Positions 2,698 through 24,046 of a stretch of DNA of 24,046 bases are shown here, one piece after another. The stretch lies in the IMG/VR virus record IMGVR_UViG_3300030107_003145, positions 1 to 24,046 of that record, one strand, 5' to 3'. Source of the DNA: a virus. Every line of letters starts with the position of its first letter. The first letter of the stretch is position 1. The notes below the pieces were generated by a model. It saw only the letters and a list, made by a program, of their open reading frames with translations, was not told the origin of the DNA and did not search any database. Both the position numbers and the translations under genes were made by a program.

Positions 2698-3455
2698 GAT
2701 GTTGGCCCTGCTGTTGCTGTAGATCCGCCACCGGTAATGTCTCCGGTTGTAGCGGTTCCTGTTGAAGTAAATTTATATTCGTTATCGTCCACAACTGTTA
2801 TTGTATATCCATTTGAGCTTTCAAGCACGGTTGTTGTTATTCCATCAAACGCTTCGGTGCTACGAAAACGAACTGTGTCGCCCGTGGTCCTGTTGTGCTT
2901 AAACTCGGTCACATGAATTATAGCATTTTCTCCCGAAGCCGCTGTTCTAAAAGGGTTTAAAGGCAATAGTGCCTGAGCGGGACCCACTGAAACAAAGGCT
3001 CCTCCGCCTCTTGCTCCACTTGTGCCTGTTCCAGCAACGGCTGAAAAAGTGTAGGTATCCGCGTCAACCTTTGTAATCGAATAAGCGTCTGGATCAACTA
3101 AAGTTCCACTGGTGAAGCCATCAAAAGCCTCTGCTCCTCTAAAACGTACTTTGTCCCCGGTACTTCTGCCGTGGTCGTCTTCAAAAACTTTAATAACCGC
3201 GCTTCCCGCTGTTGAAAGAAAAGGATTATTGGTCAGTAAAGCATCTGCCACCGGTTCTGTTCTAGCAGGACGTGGGTTGCGCAAAGCTTCCGCGTCCGCT
3301 GTAAAATGAGGTGGGTTTAATTGTGGGTGCTTAGGGCTCCACTGATCTGGGCCAACTAAAAATCCGTCCCAGGTCTTTTTCATGTCCCTTAAACGATAAC
3401 GAAACCCAGATATATCACAAATACCCCAAGCCTTTTTTCCGCTCGCAAAAGCCAT
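2694..3455 (-). CDS. Virion protein with duplicated beta domain
   Basis: This 253-residue protein opens with AWGICDISGFRYRLRDMKK, then WDGFLVGPDQWSPKHPQ. This resembles a phage N-terminal zinc-knuckle-like segment that normally carries CDICG, but the second cysteine is Ser here. Two copies of one domain follow, at about 77-157 and 167-247. Each starts NPF, then has TGDxVRFR, EAFDG, YxITxVDxxxYxF and a Gly-rich tail. The duplication is clear by alignment of these landmarks. The gene is coupled to both neighbours and lies between two adaptor-like genes, so a neck or tail-tube-associated structural role is likely. No enzyme motif is visible. Confidence 0.65.
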   Translation of the reverse strand: MAFASGKKAWGICDISGFRYRLRDMKKTWDGFLVGPDQWSPKHPQLNPPHFTADAEALRNPRPARTEPVADALLTNNPFLSTAGSAVIKVFEDDHGRSTGDKVRFRGAEAFDGFTSGTLVDPDAYSITKVDADTYTFSAVAGTGTSGARGGGAFVSVGPAQALLPLNPFRTAASGENAIIHVTEFKHNRTTGDTVRFRSTEAFDGITTTVLESSNGYTITVVDDNEYKFTSTGTATTGDITGGGSTATAGPTS

Positions 3456-5180: not shown

Positions 5181-5210
5181 AGAAAGAAAAAAGGGAGCCG
5201 AAGCTCCCTT
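5181..5210 (-). terminator. Intrinsic terminator after the major capsid gene
   Basis: Read leftward, AAGGGAGC-TTCG-GCTCCCTT (5210-5191) forms a perfect 8-bp stem closed by C-UUCG-G, the most stable common tetraloop, followed at once by a T-rich tract (TTTTCTTTCT). It ends 75 bases past the capsid stop codon. The strength and location suggest that most head-module transcripts stop here, separating abundant capsid mRNA from the neck and tail genes beyond. Confidence 0.9.
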
Positions 5211-5284
5211 TTCTGTAATACTGAGTAAGAAAGTCTGTTTGTACTACAAACAGTGTATTACCTCTTCCATATTTAGCTTGTTGC

Positions 5285-9005: not shown

Positions 9006-10406
9006 TTAGGTATTAGTGGACTGTTTCCAAGCTTCCCAAGACGCTTTGTCTTCTGGGGAAACCTCTCTACCGTAGTTTAAAAAATCGTCCCAAGAAATGT
9101 TTGTCCCCGTTGGGTAAAGTCCTGCCTGCGCTTCTACAGGGATAGCATAGTTATAAGTTAGAGGGTCTCCCAAAGGTAGTCCGCTTATTCCGCTCCCTGT
9201 GGCTGCTCCTGTGGTCGTTCCGCCACTAAAAGGTGTTGTCCCTCCAAACTGCTCTGGGCCCATAATATCATAAGGGTTTACTGACCCGTACGGGCTTGTG
9301 TAGTCAGTGTAGGGAGTGTAGCTTGTTGGAAGCGTGTAGTTAGGAGTGGGTGGAGGGGGTGTGTCTACAGGAGGTGTTTCTGGACTCACTCTTCCGCCAG
9401 CCCCTTGCATAGCTGCGGCTATTGCGGAGTTAATTGCTCCGCCTTCCCCTAAAGCAGCATCAAGAGCCGCTTGCACAGAAGCGTCCACCCCTGGTTGTCC
9501 TAAATACCCAGACTCTCCCATCATTTGCTGGATTTGCTCTCGTGTCATATAGCCAGTGTCACCAAGCATTTGTTGTACTTGGTCCATGGTCATGCCTCCA
9601 GCCATAGCTGCATCAATCATCTGTTGAACGGCGTCTTGGGTTAGGCCTTCCTCGCCTGCGCTTATGTTTTGGACCGCTGCATCAATCATTTGTTGTACTG
9701 TCTCAGGCGTTATTCCTTCAACAGGGTTGTCCACCAAATACTGCGCAATCATGTCTTGAATCTCTTGTGGGGAAAGTCCGTCCATTAGGGCCTGGTTAAT
9801 CATTTGTTGGATTTGTTCAACGCCAGGCATTGTTTCAGTAGCGGTATCAATCATTTGTTGAACTTGTTCCGGAGTAATTGTTCCTCCTGTCGCATCCAAA
9901 ATCATTTGTTGGATTTCCTCTGAGGTAAGTCCGCGAGACACAGCATCGTTTATCATGTTCTGGACCATGTCTTGTCCCACAAACTGTTCCGCCTGTTGTT
10001 CCCAGTCCTGTAGGCTCATATAATCTTCAAGGCCGAGACCCCCAAGTGCGTCGCTTATGGCTGACTGCACGTCCCCTGTTTGAGCATAGCCACTTAAATC
10101 AGGGCCTTCTAAATTGTATCCGGCAAGGGCTCCTGCAACAGCTTCGCCTAAATCACTTGTTTGGGCATAGCCGCTTAGATCGGGCTGTTCTCCTGCCAAG
10201 GCTTGAAAATAAGGAGAACCAGCAATTTGTTCAAGAACCGTGTTTAAATATTCTTCTTTTAATGTGCCGTCCGGATTTAAAAATGCTTCCGCCCCCGCCG
10301 AAGCATCGGGAGGAGGTCCTTGTGGGTCCCCAATTTTAGGGTCCTTGTCGTATTTAGGCGGGTCGTATAAAGGGTTGTCCCAAGGGTTTTCGTAAGAGAT
10401 TGGCAT
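9006..10406 (-). CDS. Repetitive Gln/Met-rich virion or morphogenesis protein
   Basis: This 466-residue protein has three parts. Residues 1-130 are Pro/Gly/Asp-rich with PDLSGYAQTxD twice. The middle holds about nine units of 20-30 residues centred on [IV]QQM[ILM], often preceded by LTxEE or ITPEQ (for example TSEEIQQMI, TPEQVQQMI, SPQEIQDMI, TREQIQQMM). The C-terminus is Pro/Tyr/Thr-rich (TPPPPTPNYTLPTSYTPY). The repeated short helices suggest a rod or a multivalent binding region. Its ATG overlaps the portal stop (TAATG), so it is made with the portal. It may be an internal head or portal-associated protein; no family recognised. Confidence 0.6.
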   Translation of the reverse strand: MPISYENPWDNPLYDPPKYDKDPKIGDPQGPPPDASAGAEAFLNPDGTLKEEYLNTVLEQIAGSPYFQALAGEQPDLSGYAQTSDLGEAVAGALAGYNLEGPDLSGYAQTGDVQSAISDALGGLGLEDYMSLQDWEQQAEQFVGQDMVQNMINDAVSRGLTSEEIQQMILDATGGTITPEQVQQMIDTATETMPGVEQIQQMINQALMDGLSPQEIQDMIAQYLVDNPVEGITPETVQQMIDAAVQNISAGEEGLTQDAVQQMIDAAMAGGMTMDQVQQMLGDTGYMTREQIQQMMGESGYLGQPGVDASVQAALDAALGEGGAINSAIAAAMQGAGGRVSPETPPVDTPPPPTPNYTLPTSYTPYTDYTSPYGSVNPYDIMGPEQFGGTTPFSGGTTTGAATGSGISGLPLGDPLTYNYAIPVEAQAGLYPTGTNISWDDFLNYGREVSPEDKASWEAWKQSTNT

Positions 10407-12883
10407 TATTTTCCTTTGTTTTTAGCTTGCTCCATTTTTTCACGGGAAATCTGAGCCCTAAGCGCTGCGATGTCTTCTTGACTTCGCATCTTCTCTTCGT
10501 CGGTTTCTTCCCTTACTTCCATTTTTTCTCGCTCAAGAGCTAATTTATCTTCAGCGATACGTTTATCGTCTTCGTTCTCTTTAGATCTTATCATAAGCTC
10601 TTGTTGCTTCAAGGCTAAAACACTATCATCATCACCGGAAACGTCCATAGCCTCATTAATTCTAGGCATTATTTCTTCTAATAAATCCGCTTCCACTTGC
10701 GCTTTTAGCTGCTCTCTTAAAGGGTTAGGCGGCATGGGTTGTGAGGTTCCTCCGCCGCCTTGTTGTAACATCATTTGCTGTTGCTGCATCATTTGCTGCT
10801 CTTGCATCAACTGTTGCTGTAATTGTGGATCCTCTTGCGCCAATTGTTGTAGTTGTTGTTCCGCGATCTCTTCCGCCTTAAGCGCAATGTGTTGAAAAAT
10901 ATCTGATAATAAAGACGTTGCCACCATAGGGTTCACTGTAGCCATAGGGTTTTCTAAAAACGTGATGTGCGATTCGATGTGCGCATCGTGGTCTTGTTCC
11001 GGAAACGCCTGTAAAGGTGCGCCCATTAAAGCGGCGGCATTTTCTAAAGCCGGGCTTGTGGGTTGCGGTGGAGGTGGATCAGGAACCAACAGAGCTTCAA
11101 TGTTCTGTGAGCCAAGCGCCGTGTACATTCGACGATACGCTTCTTTAATATTGTGTATTTCTGGATTGCTCTGCACCAATTGTAATTCTTGTTGCGCCAA
11201 AGAAATTCGTTGGGCAAAAGAGAAAAAGTTTGGATCAGAAACCGGAATAACATCAACACGATTATCAAAATCCGCTTGTTTTATCATTTGGTCGCCGCCG
11301 ACTACTTGATAAGGGTACTCTGGTGGAAGAAACTCTGAGAAAACTCTGGCTAATATTCTAAATTCTGTTTTTTGTGCGTAATGCAGTCGTTTGTGAACCG
11401 CGGACATGACCTTGGTCCCCTGTTCCATGAGCGCTAATGTTGTTCCGACTGCCGCTTGGTCATTACCTTCGCCCACTTGCATGTCTGTGATGGCCGCGAA
11501 CCGCTGACCGGCTTCCACACAAAAGCCCATTAATTGAAACAGAGTTCCACTTGGCTCTTTATAAGGGAGAGGCATCAAAGAATCTTTTAGCGCTCCGCCT
11601 GGTGCGTCTACATCTCTAAATTCTCCGGGTTCTAAAGGTGTCTCGTCGTCTCTTATTCTTATGCCCCGAGCTTTAAAGCCTGCGGGGAGGTTGGACAGGG
11701 TTCCTGCGTCTATGAGTTGTCTGAGGGCCGCTGTTGCGGTTCGAGAGAGTCCTCCGATCATGTGGATTAAACCAAAGCCGTAGAAACCCAGTCCTGGGAG
11801 AAACTTGTAGTGTACAAAATAAGCGATCTTTCTTTTTTGCGGAGCGTTTTCGTAATAGTTGCGTCGAATGGACAAAACCTGACTTGAGGTTCTATCAATA
11901 GTTACAATGAAAGGTAGGTGCAAACCATTAGGGTCTTCAAACCCCGGCATCTCCATTGAAACGTGAAACTCCAGTAGTTCATACATCATGTCGTTGCCCG
12001 AACCGCTAATGCCCTCGATCTCTTCGACCTTATCTTGCGTTACTGTCTGGGTGCTGGTGTAGGTTGGGGTAATTTCTATGTCTCGATAAAATCCGGACAA
12101 CTGTTGGCTACGAATCTCATTGTAGTTCATTTTTACAATGTGTGTAATTCTTGAACAGGTTTCCAAATCACTGGCCGCATACGGCACCACTAAATCTTCA
12201 ACTGGAACAAATTTGCTAACGGCTCTTTGTAGAGAAGGATCGTAATAGACTTTTTTGAAAGCAGAACCGGCAAGGGGCAAATAGAACAACAGTTGGTCCA
12301 TTTCCGGCGTGTATTCTTCCATGACTGTTGTAATCTGGTAATTCATAAACTCGCGCACACGATCAGCTTGCGCTTCCACTTCAGGGGTAGCTGCGCCAAC
12401 AATGTCCGTTTTTACCGGACCCTGTGCGGGCAGCAATTCTTTAAAAGCAGACGCTTGAAATTGAGTAACGGCTTCTGCCAATAATGGGTGAGTAACTCCA
12501 CTTGCGCCCGGGAAGGGTCGATCGCGGTCTTCGTACTTAAAGCCAAGAAGATCCAGTCCTTTGACATAGGCGTCTTCCCACTCGTCCCGACTCATGCGGT
12601 CTTCTTCAAAATCACCGAGCAATTGCGCGGCTATTGCACCGAGTTCCGACTCATCTATATAATCAGCTAGGTTGGCGTCAAAAGGAATCATTGCCTCTAC
12701 ACCTAATTCGTCCGGCATAAAATCAAGGACCGCGCTGCCGTCTCGGGCAAAATTAACTTCTACGTCCCCGTCTTCAGGGATAGGGGCGTCAATTTCAACC
12801 TCTTGTCCCGCTTCAATGTCCAAATCAATCAGGTCTGTGACCCGATCAATGTTGGTTGGTTTGTTCATTTCGTCTATAGCCAT
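10406..12883 (-). CDS. Portal protein
   Basis: The protein has 825 residues. After an acidic N-terminus it shows SRDEWEDAYVKGLDLLGF, DRPFPGASGVTHPLLAEAV and FQASAFKELLPAQGPVKT, a signature of large portal proteins in marine phages. The middle contains YLPLAGSAFKKVYYDPS, VPYAASDLETCSRITH, KFLPGLGFYGFGLIHMIGG and LIDAGTLSNLPAGFKARGI (wing, stem and clip regions in portal order). The C-terminal 150 residues are Gln/Met- and Glu/Lys-rich coiled coil, longer than in T7- or P22-type portals. It forms the DNA-translocating vertex ring and binds the terminase. Position four genes after TerL is standard. The ribosome site is poor, so it may rely on the preceding gene. Confidence 0.85.
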   Translation of the reverse strand: MAIDEMNKPTNIDRVTDLIDLDIEAGQEVEIDAPIPEDGDVEVNFARDGSAVLDFMPDELGVEAMIPFDANLADYIDESELGAIAAQLLGDFEEDRMSRDEWEDAYVKGLDLLGFKYEDRDRPFPGASGVTHPLLAEAVTQFQASAFKELLPAQGPVKTDIVGAATPEVEAQADRVREFMNYQITTVMEEYTPEMDQLLFYLPLAGSAFKKVYYDPSLQRAVSKFVPVEDLVVPYAASDLETCSRITHIVKMNYNEIRSQQLSGFYRDIEITPTYTSTQTVTQDKVEEIEGISGSGNDMMYELLEFHVSMEMPGFEDPNGLHLPFIVTIDRTSSQVLSIRRNYYENAPQKRKIAYFVHYKFLPGLGFYGFGLIHMIGGLSRTATAALRQLIDAGTLSNLPAGFKARGIRIRDDETPLEPGEFRDVDAPGGALKDSLMPLPYKEPSGTLFQLMGFCVEAGQRFAAITDMQVGEGNDQAAVGTTLALMEQGTKVMSAVHKRLHYAQKTEFRILARVFSEFLPPEYPYQVVGGDQMIKQADFDNRVDVIPVSDPNFFSFAQRISLAQQELQLVQSNPEIHNIKEAYRRMYTALGSQNIEALLVPDPPPPQPTSPALENAAALMGAPLQAFPEQDHDAHIESHITFLENPMATVNPMVATSLLSDIFQHIALKAEEIAEQQLQQLAQEDPQLQQQLMQEQQMMQQQQMMLQQGGGGTSQPMPPNPLREQLKAQVEADLLEEIMPRINEAMDVSGDDDSVLALKQQELMIRSKENEDDKRIAEDKLALEREKMEVREETDEEKMRSQEDIAALRAQISREKMEQAKNKGK

Positions 12884-13972: not shown

Positions 13973-14989
13973 TTAAAAATCTCTGTCGTATAGGGGGCCG
14001 TCAATTATACCGCCACCTGTTTTTTTCTTTAGTTTGTTTTTGCCTTCTAAAAACTTACCTCGAAGAGCAATTTCTTCGTCTATGGTTGGAGAAGCCCCGG
14101 TCCGCGGACCTGGGTCCGGGTTCCATCGAAACCCTTTTTCATCATAGACTGCATCGAGAGAAGGGTCCATAGGTTCCGTGGGGGTGTATTTGCCTTCTTT
14201 AGCCACATTTTTCACTTGGCTTTCGCTCCGTTGATGCAGTCGTTGGTTTTGTGGGTCGTACTCATAGTTTTCCTCCCAAAAATCCATGTCCTCCCCGGTG
14301 CCGGATGTCTTTTTGTGTTTTATCTGCGTCTCTGGAAGTGAGTTAAGGTGTCTTTTTGTTCCTCGAAGATTGTGCGCTAAATATTCGGGGGACATAGCTG
14401 CTCCCAACTCATCGACTACCGACGCGTCCATATAAGGAACATCGCCGCTGCTATAAGCGTTTGTATACATGTCGTCTACCGCGTCCACCAGCACATCCAA
14501 CCGTCCTTCGGGGTCCACGGTCATCATGTCATCTGCGAAAAATCCTCCGGACATGTCGTTAATGCTTTTTCTGTCTTGCAGTAGTTCCGGTAGCTCCTCG
14601 TTCAGAAATTCCTCGAGCAAAGATATTGATTCTTCCCCTGCGTTTTTTCTGCCTTTTAAAGCGTCTGCGCGTGCAGCAAAATCATCAATCACCGTATCAA
14701 TTTTTCTGTTGAACATGTTTGTCAAAACATCCTCGTCCATATATTTTCCGGCTTTAACCATGTCGTCCAGTTCCGAGTATTTACCGCCCAATGCGTGAAA
14801 AAGACGATCTTCCATGGTTTCCATTGCGTCGCGCCCAAAGATATTGTAAAGCTGGTCGTATTGTGCCTTTTCCGCCGTGGTGAGGTTGGTGTAGCCTTTC
14901 TGTTGCTGCTTCATTAAAATATCGTACATAGCGTCGTTGTCATAACGTCCGCGTTTCAGTAGTTCTCGTAGTGCTGCAATTCCTGACAT
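13973..14989 (-). CDS. Hypothetical acidic protein (338 aa)
   Basis: A mainly helical, acidic protein. Helices rich in Asp, Glu, Leu and Met fill residues 1-190 (LRELLKRGRYDNDAMYDILM, ISLLEEFLNEELPELLQD, LDVLVDAVDDMYTNAY). The C-terminal third is polar and probably disordered, ending in a Lys-rich segment and GGGIIDGPLYDRDF. There are no transmembrane helices, no cysteine motifs and no nuclease or protease signature. Its ATG overlaps the TerL stop (TGATG) with AAAGGAA upstream, so it is coupled to TerL. It could be a packaging accessory or virion protein; I do not recognise a family. Confidence 0.65.
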   Translation of the reverse strand: MSGIAALRELLKRGRYDNDAMYDILMKQQQKGYTNLTTAEKAQYDQLYNIFGRDAMETMEDRLFHALGGKYSELDDMVKAGKYMDEDVLTNMFNRKIDTVIDDFAARADALKGRKNAGEESISLLEEFLNEELPELLQDRKSINDMSGGFFADDMMTVDPEGRLDVLVDAVDDMYTNAYSSGDVPYMDASVVDELGAAMSPEYLAHNLRGTKRHLNSLPETQIKHKKTSGTGEDMDFWEENYEYDPQNQRLHQRSESQVKNVAKEGKYTPTEPMDPSLDAVYDEKGFRWNPDPGPRTGASPTIDEEIALRGKFLEGKNKLKKKTGGGIIDGPLYDRDF

Positions 14990-16488
14990 CAGTAATATTC
15001 CTTTCTTGGTGGTTTATAATCGCTATCCATTAGCTCATCTGATTCTAACGCAATAAACCCGCCTTGTCGATAACGCATTAACGCTTGTGTGGTCGAATCC
15101 ACCAAGTCGTCGTGGTCGCCAAACGGGAACGCGGCACATTCTTCAATCACCTCATCAGCCCACCGCTTGTCCGGGGCCCAGACCATACCGGCTTCTAAAA
15201 GTGGGGAAACGGCGTTGACTCGGGCAATTTTATCCTGTCCTTTGTTCGGCGAATAATTGAGCACCGGTATCCCGGTTTGTCTCAATTCGTGAGTAAGCGG
15301 CATACCACTGGCCTTGGCTTCAATAATCACAATGTCCGGTTCCCAATACTCGTATTGTTCAAAGGCTTCGTTTTTAAGTTCCGGAAAATTCCACCGTCCT
15401 TTGCGAGCATCGAGCAACAATAGGTTCGGTTCGCCGCCCTCTTCGGGGTAGAACACGCACCATGTCGTGATGGCTGAGAAATCCGCTGTTTCTTTCTTAC
15501 TAAACGCGGTGTCGTAACTTTGTATGACAAACTGCATATTGGGCACCCGATCCTCTTCCCAAATCCTCCACCACTCGCGTTTTAGGATTGCGCCTTCATC
15601 GGAGGTGGGGTTTTGCATCCACTGGGCTTCCCATTTGGACACCGGTAGGGAGGCTTTTACCCCCTCCAATTCGGGCAAAGTCCAGTATTCGGGCCATAAG
15701 GCGTCGTTACTGGGCATAATGGCTGGAAATTCCACCACTTCCCATTGATCGGCGTGCTCTTCCACCTGTTTACTGAGCAGTCTTCCGGTTAAATCTTTGG
15801 TGCTCCAACGCGTCATCACGATAATAATAGCGCCACCGGGTTGTAATCTTTGTCGTGGTCCTGAAGAGTAGTATTCCCAGGCATTGTCCAGAGCCGTTGG
15901 GGATAATGCGTCTTGTTCCGAGTGAATGTCATCGAGAACCAGAATATCCGCACCACGACCCGTGACCGCACCGCCAATACCCGAATAAAACGCCTCGCCG
16001 CCGCCGTTGGTTTCCCACCGTCCGGCAGACTTACTGTCCGCTTTAAGCGCCACGCCCGGGAAAACCCCTTGATAATCTTCCGAATCAATCAAGTCCCTGA
16101 CCCGTCGTCCAAAACGAAAGGCCAACTCCGCGGTGTGCGTGATTTGCATGATTTTTAACTTCGGATCGCGGCCCAAGGCCCACGAGGGGAAGTAAGTGGA
16201 GGCAAATTCAGACTTCGTGTGTCTGGGTGGCATGTTAATAATCAGGCGTTTTAGCTCTCCACGAGCCACTTTTTCCAGTTTTTCAGCAAAAATCTGGTGG
16301 TGTCGCCCTTCAATAAAATCAGGCCACATGTGTTTTACATAGGTTAAAAAACTATCCTGCCCTTCGCGCTGTAGTGTTTTAGATTTCAACGCTTCTTGAA
16401 GACCCAAAAGCTCTTTGGCGGCGTCCGGATAAAGTTCGGACAATTTTCCGGTGTTTATTTTAGTCGCAGACTTTACAGACTTCGGCAT
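14989..16488 (-). CDS. terL: Terminase large subunit
   Basis: This 499-residue protein has the two-domain layout of the DNA-packaging motor. ATPase: a Walker A-like NMPPRHTKSE (85-94), LKIMQITHTAELAFRFGRRV (111-130), Walker B ILVLDDIHSEQD (182-193) and a coupling-type IIIVMTRWS (221-229). Nuclease (RNase H fold): SYDTAFSKK (324-332), DIVIIEAKASG (385-395) and FGDHDDLVDSTTQALMRY (456-473), supplying acidic residues D326, E390 and D460/D461. It cuts concatemeric DNA and pumps it through the portal. A 53-residue gene overlaps its start by 29 bases. The Walker A has His-Thr-Lys-Ser instead of the usual Gly-Lys-Thr/Ser, as in several phage terminases. Confidence 0.95.
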   Translation of the reverse strand: MPKSVKSATKINTGKLSELYPDAAKELLGLQEALKSKTLQREGQDSFLTYVKHMWPDFIEGRHHQIFAEKLEKVARGELKRLIINMPPRHTKSEFASTYFPSWALGRDPKLKIMQITHTAELAFRFGRRVRDLIDSEDYQGVFPGVALKADSKSAGRWETNGGGEAFYSGIGGAVTGRGADILVLDDIHSEQDALSPTALDNAWEYYSSGPRQRLQPGGAIIIVMTRWSTKDLTGRLLSKQVEEHADQWEVVEFPAIMPSNDALWPEYWTLPELEGVKASLPVSKWEAQWMQNPTSDEGAILKREWWRIWEEDRVPNMQFVIQSYDTAFSKKETADFSAITTWCVFYPEEGGEPNLLLLDARKGRWNFPELKNEAFEQYEYWEPDIVIIEAKASGMPLTHELRQTGIPVLNYSPNKGQDKIARVNAVSPLLEAGMVWAPDKRWADEVIEECAAFPFGDHDDLVDSTTQALMRYRQGGFIALESDELMDSDYKPPRKEYY

Positions 16489-16621: not shown

Positions 16622-16802
16622 ACTTCTCTCTCCTTTGTATTTCTTTTTTATATTTATGGATTAATTTGGGTTTAGTGTTTGGATTTTCTATTGCTGCAAG
16701 GAGGTCTTTCATCGAAGTGGCTTTAATATAATTGTGTTGAACCTTGGTGATCCCGGTTCGTCTGTTGTAGAGTTTTTCCGTCGGCTTAAATTTAGTCGGC
16801 AT
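16611..16802 (-). CDS. Small basic conserved phage protein (63 aa)
   Basis: The protein begins MPTKFKPTEKLYNRRTG and continues with VQHNYIKATSMKDLLAAIEN, ending in Lys/Arg-rich helix (KYKKEIQRREKYVL). I recall near-identical small proteins next to terminase genes in marine phages, with no known function. It overlaps the HNH gene by 11 bases and the 53-residue gene by 11 bases, in the same direction. Basic charge would suit a DNA- or terminase-binding role, which is inference. Confidence 0.7.
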   Translation of the reverse strand: MPTKFKPTEKLYNRRTGITKVQHNYIKATSMKDLLAAIENPNTKPKLIHKYKKEIQRREKYVL

Positions 16803-17244
16803 TTTCTTTGTTGTGTACTACGTTTTTGCACCACCAGTAGAACTCACTTTCTCCCAAGGTGTGCTTCATTGTGTTTATTCGTTGTGTCACTAATTGGACG
16901 TTTCCTATTATATACCCTTTGTCCGAATTTTTCCTGTCGATACTGATATTAAGGTCCTGTCGTCCTTCGCCCCCGTGCCACGTCATAAACACCCCGGATA
17001 GCGCACAGCGTCCTTCTTGTTTGTGCCAAAGACACTTAACGTGGTCCAAATCAATGTCCCACTCCATGTCTTTCCGCGCAGCTTTGAGTTTGGAATAAAC
17101 CACAGCGACATAGGCTTCAGGGGAACTGTTGCGAGTTTGGTTTCTTTGCAGGGAAGTACAACGTCGGCAGACATTGCGGTTTTTAGTGTAGTCCTTTTTT
17201 GGTAACTCTCGTTTGCAAGTAATGCAAGTTTTTGTTTTTCCCAT
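16792..17244 (-). CDS. HNH-type endonuclease
   Basis: The start chosen is ATG 17244 (150 residues), because the extra upstream codons begin with TTG and add an unlikely six-residue leader. Residues 7-29 hold C7xxC10 and C26xxC29, a zinc-ribbon-like start. The C-terminal half shows the phage HNH pattern: EGRCALSG (77-84), SIDRKNSDKGYIIGNVQLV (101-119) and TMKHTLGESEFYWW (125-138). HNH proteins next to terminase are needed for specific packaging cleavage in HK97-like phages; a role with TerL here is inferred from the neighbourhood. A free-standing homing nuclease is the alternative. Confidence 0.8.
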   Translation of the reverse strand: MGKTKTCITCKRELPKKDYTKNRNVCRRCTSLQRNQTRNSSPEAYVAVVYSKLKAARKDMEWDIDLDHVKCLWHKQEGRCALSGVFMTWHGGEGRQDLNISIDRKNSDKGYIIGNVQLVTQRINTMKHTLGESEFYWWCKNVVHNKENAD

Positions 17245-17348: not shown

Positions 17349-17375
17349 ACCAGAGAATTTATGTCTCGATCTTTC

Positions 17376-17435
17376 CCCTTGATGGATGAATTATCAAGCC
17401 TGCGGTTCGTTCCGAAATAATTCATCCATCAAGGG
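17376..17435. repeat. Large inverted repeat IR1 (19-bp perfect stem)
   Basis: CCCTTGATGGATGAATTAT (17376-17394) is the exact reverse complement of 17417-17435. The 22-base loop contains a second hairpin, TTCG-TTC-CGAA (17406-17416), which abuts the right arm. No T-run follows on either strand, so it is not a standard intrinsic terminator. TTGATGG in the arm and CGTTCCG in the loop are shared with the hairpin at 18357-18422. Confidence 0.85.
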
Positions 17436-17494: not shown

Positions 17495-17528
17495 ATAGAA
17501 TGAACGCACGGCCGTGCGTTCATTCTAT
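17495..17528. repeat. 34-base perfect palindrome (IR2)
   Basis: ATAGAATGAACGCACGG (17495-17511) is followed immediately by its exact reverse complement (17512-17528), with no spacer. The centre is CACGGCCGTG. A perfect dyad of this length could extrude as a cruciform or bind a dimeric or tetrameric protein. It is eight bases from the stop of the 26-residue gene and has no T-run. Confidence 0.85.
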
Positions 17529-17968: not shown

Positions 17969-18292
17969 ATGAAACAACCAACTGAACCAATAAAACTACT
18001 GCTCGCTCACTTGATCGAGGAAGGGGAAACACCCGAAACAGCCAAGAAAATAGTGGACGCCATGCTCGGTGAACTGTGTGTAAAGTACGAACAGCTTAGA
18101 GCAAACAAAGGGGCCACAATTCTTGACCATATTTATGGTCCGCTTAATCGTTCTGATAATTACTTCCATGAAAAATGGGGTAAGTTTATCAATCAAGGAT
18201 ACGCTTTTGCTTGTCATTTAGACGGGGGCAATCGTCCTAGATTGGGAAAAGCTTTTCGTGAGTACATCGCAGAACAGGAGAAGTACGCATGA
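17969..18292 (+). CDS. Hypothetical protein, first rightward gene (107 aa)
   Basis: The ATG at 17969 follows TAGGAG by eight bases and is preferred over the in-frame ATG at 17927, which sits on the probable -10 element. The protein is a soluble, mostly helical, mixed-charge chain: EPIKLLLAHLIEEGETPETA, AKKIVDAMLGELCVKYEQLR, then GPLNRSDNYFHEKWGKFINQ and a basic/acidic end. No domain is recognised. As the first gene after the promoter it is likely expressed early. It ends in an ATGA overlap with a 24-residue frame. Confidence 0.7.
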   Translation: MKQPTEPIKLLLAHLIEEGETPETAKKIVDAMLGELCVKYEQLRANKGATILDHIYGPLNRSDNYFHEKWGKFINQGYAFACHLDGGNRPRLGKAFREYIAEQEKYA

Positions 18293-18363
18293 ACGAGGAA
18301 ACAAAAACAAACGGATCGGGGCCCTCGGGCCTCGGTTCATTTATGAGGGGGGTGTTTAATTGA
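18289..18363 (+). CDS. Possible 24-residue peptide
   Basis: The frame begins at ATG 18289, overlapping the stop of the previous gene (ATGA), with AGGAG eight bases upstream. It reads MNEETKTNGSGPSGLGSFMR plus GVFN. The start signals are good, but the product is short and simple, and its stop codon lies inside the left arm of the large hairpin at 18357-18422. It may be a coupled micropeptide or simply the leader into that structure. Confidence 0.4.
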   Translation: MNEETKTNGSGPSGLGSFMRGVFN

Positions 18364-18422
18364 TGGTAAAAGAACGGGCGTTCCGCCTTCCCACTGTCGT
18401 GGGGTTCTTTTACCATCAATTA
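18357..18422. repeat. Large inverted repeat IR4 with three-way-junction fold
   Basis: TAATTGATGGTAAAAGAAC (18357-18375) pairs perfectly with 18404-18422. The 28-base loop folds into two further hairpins, GGCG-TTC-CGCC (18377-18387) and CCCAC-TGTC-GTGGG (18390-18403), so the whole can form a T- or Y-shape. There is no T-run after it. A 27-base left part (18360-18386) matches that of the hairpin at 19164-19212 at 25 positions. Confidence 0.85.
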
Positions 18423-18448
18423 TATATAAAACATATCCCATATTTATG

Positions 18449-18454
18449 TATAAT
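18449..18454 (+). promoter_or_regulatory. Rightward -10 (TATAAT)
   Basis: A perfect TATAAT preceded by TG lies 40 bases before the 44-residue gene, just after the large hairpin. The -35 region is AT-rich with no good hexamer. The same TGTATAATA string recurs at 19693-19701. Confidence 0.5.
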
Positions 18455-18493
18455 ATAGATGTAAGTTAATTTTATTAAAACAAGGAAAAACAA

Positions 18494-18628
18494 ATGAAAA
18501 AGAAAGCAAACTGGGAACTAAGGAAAATTGTCCAAGCATTGTCTTTAATGCCTGTCTTAAATTCCAAAGACGAAAACAAACTACTTAAACAAGCTAAAGA
18601 AGAGCTAATAAAAAGGAGGGCTTGGTAA
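18494..18628 (+). CDS. Small basic hypothetical protein (44 aa)
   Basis: The frame reads MKKKANWELRKIVQALSLMP and ends in a Lys/Glu helix (LLKQAKEELIKRRAW). AAGGA stands eight bases before the ATG. Its stop overlaps the next ATG (TAATG), and the AGGAGG site of the next gene lies in its last codons. The helical, basic character and operon fit support it; function unknown. Confidence 0.6.
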   Translation: MKKKANWELRKIVQALSLMPVLNSKDENKLLKQAKEELIKRRAW

Positions 18629-19041
18629 TGAAACAAGAATATTACAAGAAGGACGAAATCAAAGAACACTTTGATGATTTCCTAGAAGATCGGGACGAAG
18701 ATTGGATAGAGGAAAACATTGATGATATCCACCACTACGCCTTTAATGAGGATTATTACATCATCGGCACTTATCGAGCAAAGCAATGGTGCGGTGATGA
18801 TGTGTTTAACATCATTGCAACCATACGAGAGTATGAGGACATGCACTTTGGTGAAGTCACTACAGATTTTTCTGATCCCGAAAAGGTTGTCAATATGTAC
18901 GCTTACATTGTCGGGGAAGAAGTGGTGGCTGAATGGCTAGAGAAAAGAGAATTGAAAAGCGCACTTCTTAACGAGGCTGAAAAGCGAGGCTTTAACAAAG
19001 ATCATTTAGATAAGCACCTAGAAGTTATAGCAGTGAAATAA
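18628..19041 (+). CDS. Acidic hypothetical protein (137 aa)
   Basis: The ATG at 18628 follows AGGAGG by about nine bases and is preferred over an in-frame TTG two codons upstream. The protein is very acidic and aromatic: EIKEHFDDFLEDRDEDWIEE, NIDDIHHYAFNEDYYIIGTY, then FNIIATIREYEDMHFGEVTT. The C-terminus is helical (KSALLNEAEKRGFNKDHLDK). It has no cysteine pairs or membrane segments. High negative charge is shared with later genes of the block. Acidic phage proteins can mimic DNA, but nothing specific shows this here. Confidence 0.7.
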   Translation: MKQEYYKKDEIKEHFDDFLEDRDEDWIEENIDDIHHYAFNEDYYIIGTYRAKQWCGDDVFNIIATIREYEDMHFGEVTTDFSDPEKVVNMYAYIVGEEVVAEWLEKRELKSALLNEAEKRGFNKDHLDKHLEVIAVK

Positions 19042-19052
19042 TGCCCATGGTT

Positions 19053-19094
19053 CGCGATCCGTTCAATAACTCCTATTTATCCCAACGGATCGCG
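19053..19094. repeat. Inverted repeat IR5 (11-bp stem)
   Basis: CGCGATCCGTT (19053-19063) pairs exactly with AACGGATCGCG (19084-19094) around a 20-base loop, twelve bases after the stop of the 137-residue gene. No T-run follows. It is less similar to the other large hairpins in sequence but alike in arrangement. Confidence 0.7.
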
Positions 19095-19163
19095 GACACC
19101 TATCCCAAAGAAAAAATAAAAATAAACATGCTGAAAGAACGAGCAACGGGTGTGTGTTTTTAT

Positions 19164-19212
19164 TTAATGGTGAAAGAACGGGCGTTCCGCTTTTTCCGTC
19201 TTTCACCATTAA
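19164..19212. repeat. Inverted repeat IR6 (14-bp stem), relative of IR4
   Basis: TTAATGGTGAAAGA (19164-19177) pairs with TCTTTCACCATTAA (19199-19212). The loop holds GCG-TTC-CGC (19182-19190). It abuts the stop codon of the leftward nuclease gene with no spacer and could act at the 3' end of that mRNA. Both base differences from IR4 in the stem are matched by changes on the opposite arm. Confidence 0.85.
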
Positions 19213-19623
19213 TCAAGGATTATTTACAGAATTATCTAAAAAAGTTTTTAATTCTTTCCAATTATGTGGGTACGAGAGAACAACGAGGGGTTTAATCCTT
19301 GTTCCCTGTTCGCTGATCTCTCGTATCTTCCCTCCACCATAGAGCAATATCTCAGATTTTCGAGGGTTACTCTCCGAGAACCGCTTGACCAAGATAAAAC
19401 ACGGACAATCTTCTCTTTCAACATGGAAGGCTATTTGGTGTGGTGAGATAGATATGCGATTACTTTTGCTTACTTTTAACTCAACCGTGAACAATCTTCC
19501 TTCCTCAGTAAAGCCCAACAAGTCAGGTACGCCTTGTGTTGCCCAAGATTCAATCCTAACCCAACGATATTTAGGCAGATTTTTCTTTACCTGTTGCCAA
19601 AAATTTGTCTCAGGATTAGCCAT
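19213..19623 (-). CDS. VRR-NUC / PD-(D/E)XK nuclease
   Basis: This 136-residue protein shows ATQGVPDLLGFTEEGRLFTV then ELK: PD at 33-34, E48-L-K50 and Gln63 in SPHQIAF. This is the catalytic layout of VRR-NUC and archaeal-resolvase-like PD-(D/E)XK nucleases, metal-dependent enzymes that often cut branched DNA. The N-terminal helix (ETNFWQQVKKNLPKY) and single-domain size also fit. It is the only leftward gene within the rightward block. Its ribosome site is poor. The large hairpin IR6 follows its stop directly. Likely roles are recombination-intermediate resolution or host DNA breakdown; which one is not shown. Confidence 0.8.
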   Translation of the reverse strand: MANPETNFWQQVKKNLPKYRWVRIESWATQGVPDLLGFTEEGRLFTVELKVSKSNRISISPHQIAFHVEREDCPCFILVKRFSESNPRKSEILLYGGGKIREISEQGTRIKPLVVLSYPHNWKELKTFLDNSVNNP

Positions 19624-20913: not shown

Positions 20914-21175
20914 GATTGGTGTCCAAGACGGAGAAAGAGAATATTCTGATTGGACTTATTACGAAAACTTTAATCAAACTGATTATTTAGAGGGAGAAAT
21001 AACTGATAGAGAAATTTTATCTGAGTTTTTGGGGTTTAGTCTTACTGACGATGATTACTTGGATAAAGATAGAGAGAAGTATTGGAATGATACAAGTGCT
21101 GTTTGGGTAAATAATGTTTTAAATATATCTGAACAGGACTTAAAAACTTTAAGACAATATGGAATTTTATATTAA
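20900..21175 (+). CDS. Acidic hypothetical protein (91 aa)
   Basis: The ATG at 20900 lies seven bases after GGAGG, better placed than the GTG one codon earlier. The protein has about 20 acidic against 8 basic residues and many aromatics (EYSDWTYYENFNQTDYLEGE, TDDDYLDKDREKYWND). Strong negative charge and compact size are the only clear traits. A DNA-mimic or inhibitor role would be speculation. Confidence 0.65.
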   Translation: MILVKIGVQDGEREYSDWTYYENFNQTDYLEGEITDREILSEFLGFSLTDDDYLDKDREKYWNDTSAVWVNNVLNISEQDLKTLRQYGILY

Positions 21176-21186
21176 GGGGAAGAATG

Positions 21187-21705
21187 ATGAGTGAACAAAA
21201 ACACTACGAATACTACATAGGCGGTTTTTACTATGAGGGCGAAAAGCCCGATGTAAGCCATGTGATTATTTTCAACAAAGAAGGCGAACCTATAGAGGAA
21301 AGCGAGGGGTTTTCTCACGACTATAACTGCACAGACGCAGACGGTGTTTGGGATTTTAGCAATGTTGCTTTAACCGAAGAACCTCACGATCATTGCGTTG
21401 TTGTTGAATATAAAACAAACAAGGTTTTAGGTTTGGTGGAGATATTTAGCGAAGAAGATAATGAACCAGTACATACAGGATATGAAATAGGTTATGAAGA
21501 AGAAGGTGCGTTGGAATATTTTTGGCAATCATTAGAAGATGACAAAGAAAAACGAGACGCTTATTTTGATGCAACCAAACACAAAATCGTCACTCACAAG
21601 TGGAAAGAGATCACAGACGCAGATGATGAGGCACAAGGTCTTAGAGATTGGGAGTGGTACATAGAAGTCTTTAAAATAAAGGAGGTGTCTGATGAAAACC
21701 TATAA
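21187..21705 (+). CDS. Acidic hypothetical protein (173-aa frame, 172 from second ATG)
   Basis: Two adjacent ATG codons (21184, 21187) follow AGGGGA. The second is better spaced and gives MSEQKHYEYYIGGFYYEGEK. The protein is acidic with beta-type segments (VSHVIIFNKEGEPIEESEG, HCVVVEYKTNKVLGLVEIF) and a helical acidic end. No known domain is recognised. The gene ends across the AGGAGGTGTCTG cassette of the next start, overlapping it by 14 bases. Confidence 0.65.
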   Translation: MSEQKHYEYYIGGFYYEGEKPDVSHVIIFNKEGEPIEESEGFSHDYNCTDADGVWDFSNVALTEEPHDHCVVVEYKTNKVLGLVEIFSEEDNEPVHTGYEIGYEEEGALEYFWQSLEDDKEKRDAYFDATKHKIVTHKWKEITDADDEAQGLRDWEWYIEVFKIKEVSDENL

Positions 21706-23806: not shown

Positions 23807-23979
23807 TGAGTAGTGCTAAAGAAAGAGACTATAAAGACACAGACACTTTTGAGTTGTTTAAAAAAGACTTGGACAAGGTGTTAGAAAAACACTATCCAAA
23901 CACAGATTATGAATGGGATTATCTATCTGACAAATGGATTGAGTTAAGAGTGTGGATTAAGGAGTGGAAAGATGAGTAG
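23806..23979 (+). CDS. Hypothetical protein (57 aa)
   Basis: The ATG overlaps the previous stop (TGATG) behind AGGAGGGTG. The product is helical and acidic/aromatic (DTFELFKKDLDKVLEKHYPN, YEWDYLSDKWIELRVWIKEW). It overlaps the next start by eight bases, with AGGAG in place. Operon fit and strong start signals support it. Confidence 0.62.
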   Translation: MSSAKERDYKDTDTFELFKKDLDKVLEKHYPNTDYEWDYLSDKWIELRVWIKEWKDE

Positions 23980-24046
23980 AAGTATAGACGAACACAAACT
24001 CCTTGAAAAACTAAGAGAGGACGAGAACAAATCACTAAAGAGACTT
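23972..24046 (+). CDS. Hypothetical protein, partial (C-terminus beyond window)
   Basis: ATG at 23972 follows AGGAG by eight bases. The 25 codons visible read MSRSIDEHKLLEKLREDENK plus SLKRL and remain open at the window end. It is another small helical gene of the same train. Confidence 0.55.
   Translation, partial: MSRSIDEHKLLEKLREDENKSLKRL

Follow-up and report, generated by a model that had tools for sequence, protein, structure and literature searches.

The window, that is the whole 24,046-nt stretch of DNA analysed, carries a terminase large subunit gene (terL; 14989-16488, minus strand) that served to place the phage and to orient its relatives. The closest terL sequences, 57-62% identical, are those of phages psg01, HTVC027P, DSL-LC04 and HTVC023P, and the window is therefore taken as a fragment of an uncultured relative of the HTVC023P/HTVC027P type. 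Late genes run leftwards up to terL and an HNH gene (16792-17244, minus strand) with endonuclease VII-type PHROGs hits, early genes run rightwards from 19722, and an array of large hairpins lies between. The HNH gene borders this array on the terL side; its other border is a minus-strand gene (19213-19623) for a resolvase-like nuclease of the Hjc/RecU/VRR-NUC fold. An array flanked in the same way, by a homologue of the 19213-19623 gene and by HNH plus terL, is found in relatives G001, G003 (where the pattern spans the contig ends), G004, G005 and G006; the sole exception among the window and G001-G006 is G002, where the HNH gene is absent from the border.

Two of the window's hairpins share an arm. 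H1 (18357-18422, no strand assigned) is a large hairpin whose 19-bp perfect outer stem encloses two small hairpins, GGGCG-UUC-CGCC and CCCAC-UGUC-GUGGG by RNA folding; H2 (19164-19212, likewise without strand) has a 14-bp perfect stem and occupies a convergent gene gap. Direct reading and repeat scans bear out both hairpins and their common left part as the sequence-only reading had reported them, with 25 of 27 bases identical between 18360-18386 and 19164-19190, and the two differences (G18362/A19166 and A18368/G19172) are present and matched by the opposite-arm bases (C18417/T19210 and T18411/C19204). Folding gave -41 kcal/mol (z -9.4) for H1 and -25.8 kcal/mol (z -6.3) for H2, and 0 of 200 shuffles were as stable as either. 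A scan for perfect arms of at least 10 bp with loops up to 60 found six inverted repeats in the whole window, against 1, 0 and 0 in three shuffled versions. The existence of H1 and H2, their shared part and the compensated pairs are confirmed as far above chance. Two smaller points in that reading fared less well. It placed both hairpins directly after stop codons, whereas H1 begins 65 nt past the preceding stop (18290-18292) and H2 lies 123 nt past the plus-strand stop at 19041, while directly adjoining the stop codon, at 19213, of the minus-strand gene. It also saw no T-runs, but the 3' arm of H1 contains TTCTTTT; on the plus strand this follows the GC hairpins, and a lax terminator scan calls H1 because of it.

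Three further perfect inverted repeats, overlooked at first, fall in the same 2 kb as H1 and H2, none assigned to a strand. H0 (17376-17435) is a third large hairpin with 19-bp arms, in which TTGATGG is also present. It shares its gap with a palindrome of unrelated sequence and 15-bp arms (17495-17528); at the same place relatives L003 (8210-8241) and L009 (1924-1955) have quite different short-looped palindromes, perfectly paired over 14-15 bp. A hairpin with 11-bp arms (19053-19094) lies a short way past the stop codon of gene 18628-19041 and is possibly a terminator, though it has no clear T-run. The sequence just upstream of H2 (GAAAGAACGAGCAAC, 19137-19151, no strand assigned) probably duplicates half of the left arm, and clearer half-copies stand ahead of H1 in L001 and of H2 in L004. 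The gap around H1 is ordered as the stop at 18292, a GC-rich hairpin (CGGGGCC-CTCG-GGCCTCG, 18317-18334, plus strand) that is conserved in relatives and is a weak terminator candidate, H1, the promoter-like TCCCATATTTATGTATAAT immediately after it (18436-18454, plus strand), and the start codon at 18494. Among the structural genes of the window, AAAAGGGAGCCGAAGCTCCCTTTT at 5189-5212 resembles an ordinary bidirectional terminator, unlike the junction hairpins.

The H1 gap is conserved while the genes on both sides of it are exchanged. The block made up of GC hairpin, H1 and promoter (18311-18500, plus strand) is 83-96% identical in L001, L003, L004, L005, L006 and L009, yet in these six relatives the gene directly following it is one of at least five different ones, and the preceding genes vary too. 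Relatives have other genes in place of the two small plus-strand genes between H1 and H2 (18494-18628 and 18628-19041), and the small plus-strand gene left of H1 (17969-18292) is exchanged or truncated in them. In L004, a hairpin, a promoter and a gene replace most of the 17969-18292 homologue, leaving its promoter, start and about 16 codons; the truncated homologue, at 3277-3427 of the L004 reverse complement, is likely a gene-replacement scar. Some small genes (gene families 37, 46, 70 and 33) are not fixed in place: when L003, L005 and L131 are compared with the window, a gene that one phage has in the hairpin locus is part of the early operon, or is inverted, in another phage.

Four relatives with terL 90-98% identical (L049, L052, L053 and L056) are without the hairpin at 17376, so terL alone does not predict which type of hairpin a phage has. 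Homology to the window stops sharply at 17375 in all four, but here some 80 bp have been replaced locally, since homology resumes at CAATAGGATCCCCAT. Over all pairs, homology ends lie within 20 bp of hairpins at 12.3% versus 10.0%, and within 40 bp at 26.7% versus 16.5%. The excess within 20 bp is too small to support exchange exactly at the hairpin edges; since breakpoints gather only loosely near the hairpins, precise site-specific exchange is unsupported. Another short hairpin, AGCCCCCACATCTACTCAGGTGTGGGGGCT and variants, is reused near the same genes in L049, L052, L056, L057 and L116, forming a second repeated family of more terminator-like appearance.

The sequence-only reading proposed a small repeated element family in this phage, to be followed with a covariance search, and such a search did find further copies in relatives. 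An exact 17-mer of the part shared by H1 and H2 occurs in seven related viral contigs and in three unrelated sequences by chance. A covariance model built from 13 copies matches nothing in the window except H1 and H2 and finds homologues of both in relatives, with a third L004 copy (9492-9582, E 2e-10) that has the same outer stem and a different centre, and a weak match to a hairpin of the 17376 type in L005 (E 0.006). The family is repeated as proposed, but it is neither small nor restricted to this phage: recognised by position and architecture, the hairpins of many phages take up a locus of 2-5 kb, and their stem sequences are lineage-specific. When terL and nuclease relatives were scanned, many proved to have several large, perfectly paired hairpins whose sequences are different; their stem ends include GACAAGC, CAAGCAAGC, AAAGCGACGAGCC and ACAAGCGACAAGC.

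The many copies are concentrated at one locus. Across 83 terL-oriented contigs, whose counts are not independent because the contigs overlap in content, hairpins with perfect arms of at least 13 bp number 106 in the 193 kb upstream of terL and 1 in the 353 kb of terL plus downstream genes; shuffled upstream sequence from these contigs yielded none. Where at least 3.5 kb upstream of terL is available, 22 of 30 contigs have such a hairpin, and in six large relatives almost all large hairpins lie within a few kb beside terL. Stem ends are reused within a lineage: a 7-mer in the outer 14 bp is common to 33 of 99 hairpin pairs within a contig versus 18% between contigs, and this reuse is therefore a tendency, clearest in some lineages. 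Among the isolates, smaller repeats of this kind occur in DSL-LC04 (TACAAACA arms) and HTVC027P (one palindrome, at 18049-18100 of its record), and HTVC023P has mainly ordinary short hairpins. Such hairpins are not described for pelagiphages in the literature searched. A possible host clue from the stem of one lineage was discarded as chance, the bacterial genome scan having matched four unrelated bacteria. The early regions of G004 (21648-21700), G006 (23931-23983) and G005 (11733-11797) hold another kind of hairpin, in which TTCTGTCAGGTTAGG-like and CACCT units are repeated, perhaps a replication origin or an array of iterons.

Pairing is kept as the stems change. In the H1/H2 alignment of 10 distinct rows, three pairs are changed on both sides, some via G-U intermediates, and 93.7% of cells pair, versus 38-66% with the partner slid; this is the contrary of stems eroding without compensation in relatives, the outcome that the sequence-only reading had set against its own proposal. 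In the CAAGCAAGC hairpin of another lineage, variation affects 2 of 27 pairs, each of which shows double changes, one sequence being a mismatched intermediate, and the loop varies freely. The hairpins that the window, L003, L004 and L005 carry at 17376 have strongly different yet perfectly paired inner stems between conserved flanks, the inner stem of H0 being swapped with its pairing intact in all three relatives. Phage lineages tend to reuse their own stem-end sequence while inner stems change and still pair. Matched arms also arise when the template is switched within a palindrome or when copies undergo gene conversion. For that reason the two compensated pairs, which had been offered as strong evidence that the fold is kept, are on their own no proof of selection for a folded RNA, although the pairing is indeed kept in relatives; it would fit selection for pairing as well as mutational correction within palindromes.

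An RNA role, as an RNase III-type processing site or an mRNA 3'-end protector, draws on the strong RNA hairpins that the stems form and on the one-sided changes in H1/H2, which are G-U on the plus strand. The whole set behaves otherwise: its single mismatches show no preference for G-U (G-T 3, C-A 12, other 15; rows partly redundant), and Rfam returned no relevant match for the hairpins at either gathering or relaxed thresholds. Many hairpins, moreover, come after a terminator and before a promoter. Because of this position between a terminator and the next promoter, frequent where gene order is clear, a stable RNA, among the candidates named at the outset, is not the leading reading, and we regard an RNA element as clearly unlikely. 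Stable small RNA and plain terminator were both lowered as readings on the gap position and the weak U-tracts.

Promoters are frequently near. Of 175 hairpins, 53 have TATGGGA/TCCCATA no more than 120 nt away, versus 8% at random places, and a sigma-70 scan of the region gave chance level. H1 and many of its relatives have an adjoining promoter-like motif and H2 has none. Several G001 gaps read stop, terminator, hairpin, promoter, start, and elsewhere no separate terminator was seen. Hairpins lie in co-directional, convergent (H2) and divergent (G001 21012-21075) gaps. A U-tract at the stem base (6 T in 8) accompanies 36 of 151 hairpins with 22 expected, mildly above chance; one lineage has AAAAGCG...CGCTTTT arms. 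Arms reach 38 bp, far above the usual terminator length. The shared stem ends might instead be an operator bound by a co-evolving phage regulator, the hairpin shape being secondary, and identical ends do recur at several promoters of one genome and differ between lineages. That we hold to be very improbable, as the spacing of the conserved ends varies widely, pairing is maintained in the inner stems as well, and H2 sits in a convergent gap with no promoter.

The nuclease at the array's edge invites a reading at the DNA level. The predicted structure of the 19213-19623 product (pLDDT 91.5) has a resolvase-type fold, RecU, Hjc and VRR_NUC are among the best Foldseek matches, albeit at modest TM-scores, profile hits agree, and the GxPD, ExK and Q residues do not vary across 25 homologues; the model of the HNH product is of lower confidence. 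The modelled protein thus combines a resolvase fold with PD-(D/E)xK residues, junction cutting being a predicted activity. Related phage VRR-Nuc proteins cut four-way junctions (PMC4103454). Homologues of this nuclease were also present as ORFs not annotated as such in L191 (6217-6588; 16216-16587 of the HTVC027P record) and L190 (18925-19344; DSL-LC04).

The palindromes might accordingly be cruciform sites, extruding or folding during replication and bound or cut by the Hjc-fold resolvase and perhaps also by the HNH enzyme, whereby cassette recombination would be driven or branched DNA cleared before packaging. The fold and catalytic residues, the junction cutting by VRR-Nuc relatives and the position of both nuclease genes at the array borders speak for this, as do the long and perfect stems, the lack of strand bias in mismatch type and the single orientation of flank-matched repeats (7 of 7 in G004, 7 of 7 in G006). 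Nuclease genes adjoining terL are common in phages, however, isolates in which large hairpins are few or absent carry these border genes too, and homology does not end at the hairpins, which leaves cruciform sites rather unlikely. Further still from likely is a recombinase-free cassette platform in which cruciform-forming palindromes between exchangeable small genes would be substrates of the phage's own Holliday-junction resolvase at the array edge; if true, gene turnover would proceed by structure-specific cutting and not by site-specific recombination.

A selfish palindrome, REPIN-like or MITE-like, could copy itself into gene gaps with its functions supplied in trans. It would account for the three L004 copies with a common outer stem and different centres, for the left-arm half-copies, and for a palindrome with 17-bp arms nested in a junction-hairpin loop in G001 (19391-19483) and absent from L144 (4019-4099). 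REPIN/RAYT systems likewise have inverted conserved ends, a variable centre and a long hairpin, but the elements here keep to one locus and have no Y1 transposase: RAYT/Y1 (PF01797) was absent in 7 records, a search of phage records, and a host enzyme might act in trans. No target duplication was seen, and matched arms are not required of a selfish repeat, so that we think such copying improbable. Integron attC cassettes are similar in that small genes are separated by palindromic sites alike within a lineage, although attC has extrahelical bases whereas the arms here are perfectly paired, and H1 and H2 have no GTTRRRY core. A tyrosine recombinase (IntI, PF00589) was absent in the 7 records, the window record being a fragment, with positive controls.

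The PeSL (promoter early stem-loop) cassettes (Arbiol 2010; Comeau 2014) are reportedly mobile regulatory cassettes of T4-type phages, cited for example in PMC4503421. They pair a repeated intergenic stem-loop with an early-type promoter and are dense where small genes shuffle. The present locus is alike in that stem-loops are repeated in the gaps of a hyperplastic region and genes are exchanged while the gap cassette stays. It differs in that the window phage is not T4-type, the arms are much longer and perfectly paired, and the stem sequence is lineage-specific and confined to one nuclease-bounded locus beside terL; the PeSL stem-loop is regarded as an intrinsic terminator, and the hairpin here is a candidate one. 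Given the phages to which the window's terL is nearest, we describe the arrangement as working like PeSL and do not file it as one. In haloarchaeal virus HGTV-1 (PMC3950731), a conserved promoter-like motif and inverted repeat precede many ORFs, and its authors liken them to PeSLs; the combination is like the one here, in an archaeal myovirus. Phage morons with their own promoter and terminator are also small, apparently independently expressed genes in module gaps, but here the shared large hairpin is an extra constant part and several units stand side by side.

The locus is best read as a hyperplastic gene-cassette region between the resolvase-like nuclease gene and the HNH and terL genes. 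For H1 and H2 themselves we favour, tentatively and at slightly under even odds (about 0.45), the reading that they are the junction hairpins of a gene-swapping locus, in which gap cassettes of hairpin and promoter insulate the units and offer homology for swapping. Hairpin, neighbouring terminator and promoter together would insulate each gene unit, with the transcribed hairpin hindering read-through from either side. The repeated gap sequence would serve as homology for swaps of gene units, as proposed for PeSL, and the gaps probably offer recombination a harmless joining place between small genes. Insulation is supported by the short GC-rich terminator-like hairpins carried nearby by L049, L052, L053 and L056. 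It is weakened by U-tracts only mildly above chance, by the separate terminators that adjoin many hairpins, and by one hairpin in a divergent gap, which calls for no terminator. Arms of up to 38 bp and the lack of concentration of homology ends at hairpin edges also speak against the favoured reading. In isolate HTVC027P, gp33 and gp34 of the locus fall into an additional temporal cluster of expression; this is consistent with independent units and bears on the genes, not on the hairpin. The expression part can be examined, since time-course RNA-seq of this related isolate on SAR11 is published (PMC12753301).

These results point to a fixed locus where marine phages related to pelagiphages gain and lose small genes of unknown function, and a hairpin element seems to organise the turnover of these genes. 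A testable link is raised between the palindromes and the adjoining resolvase gene, and the PeSL idea would extend beyond T4-type phages.
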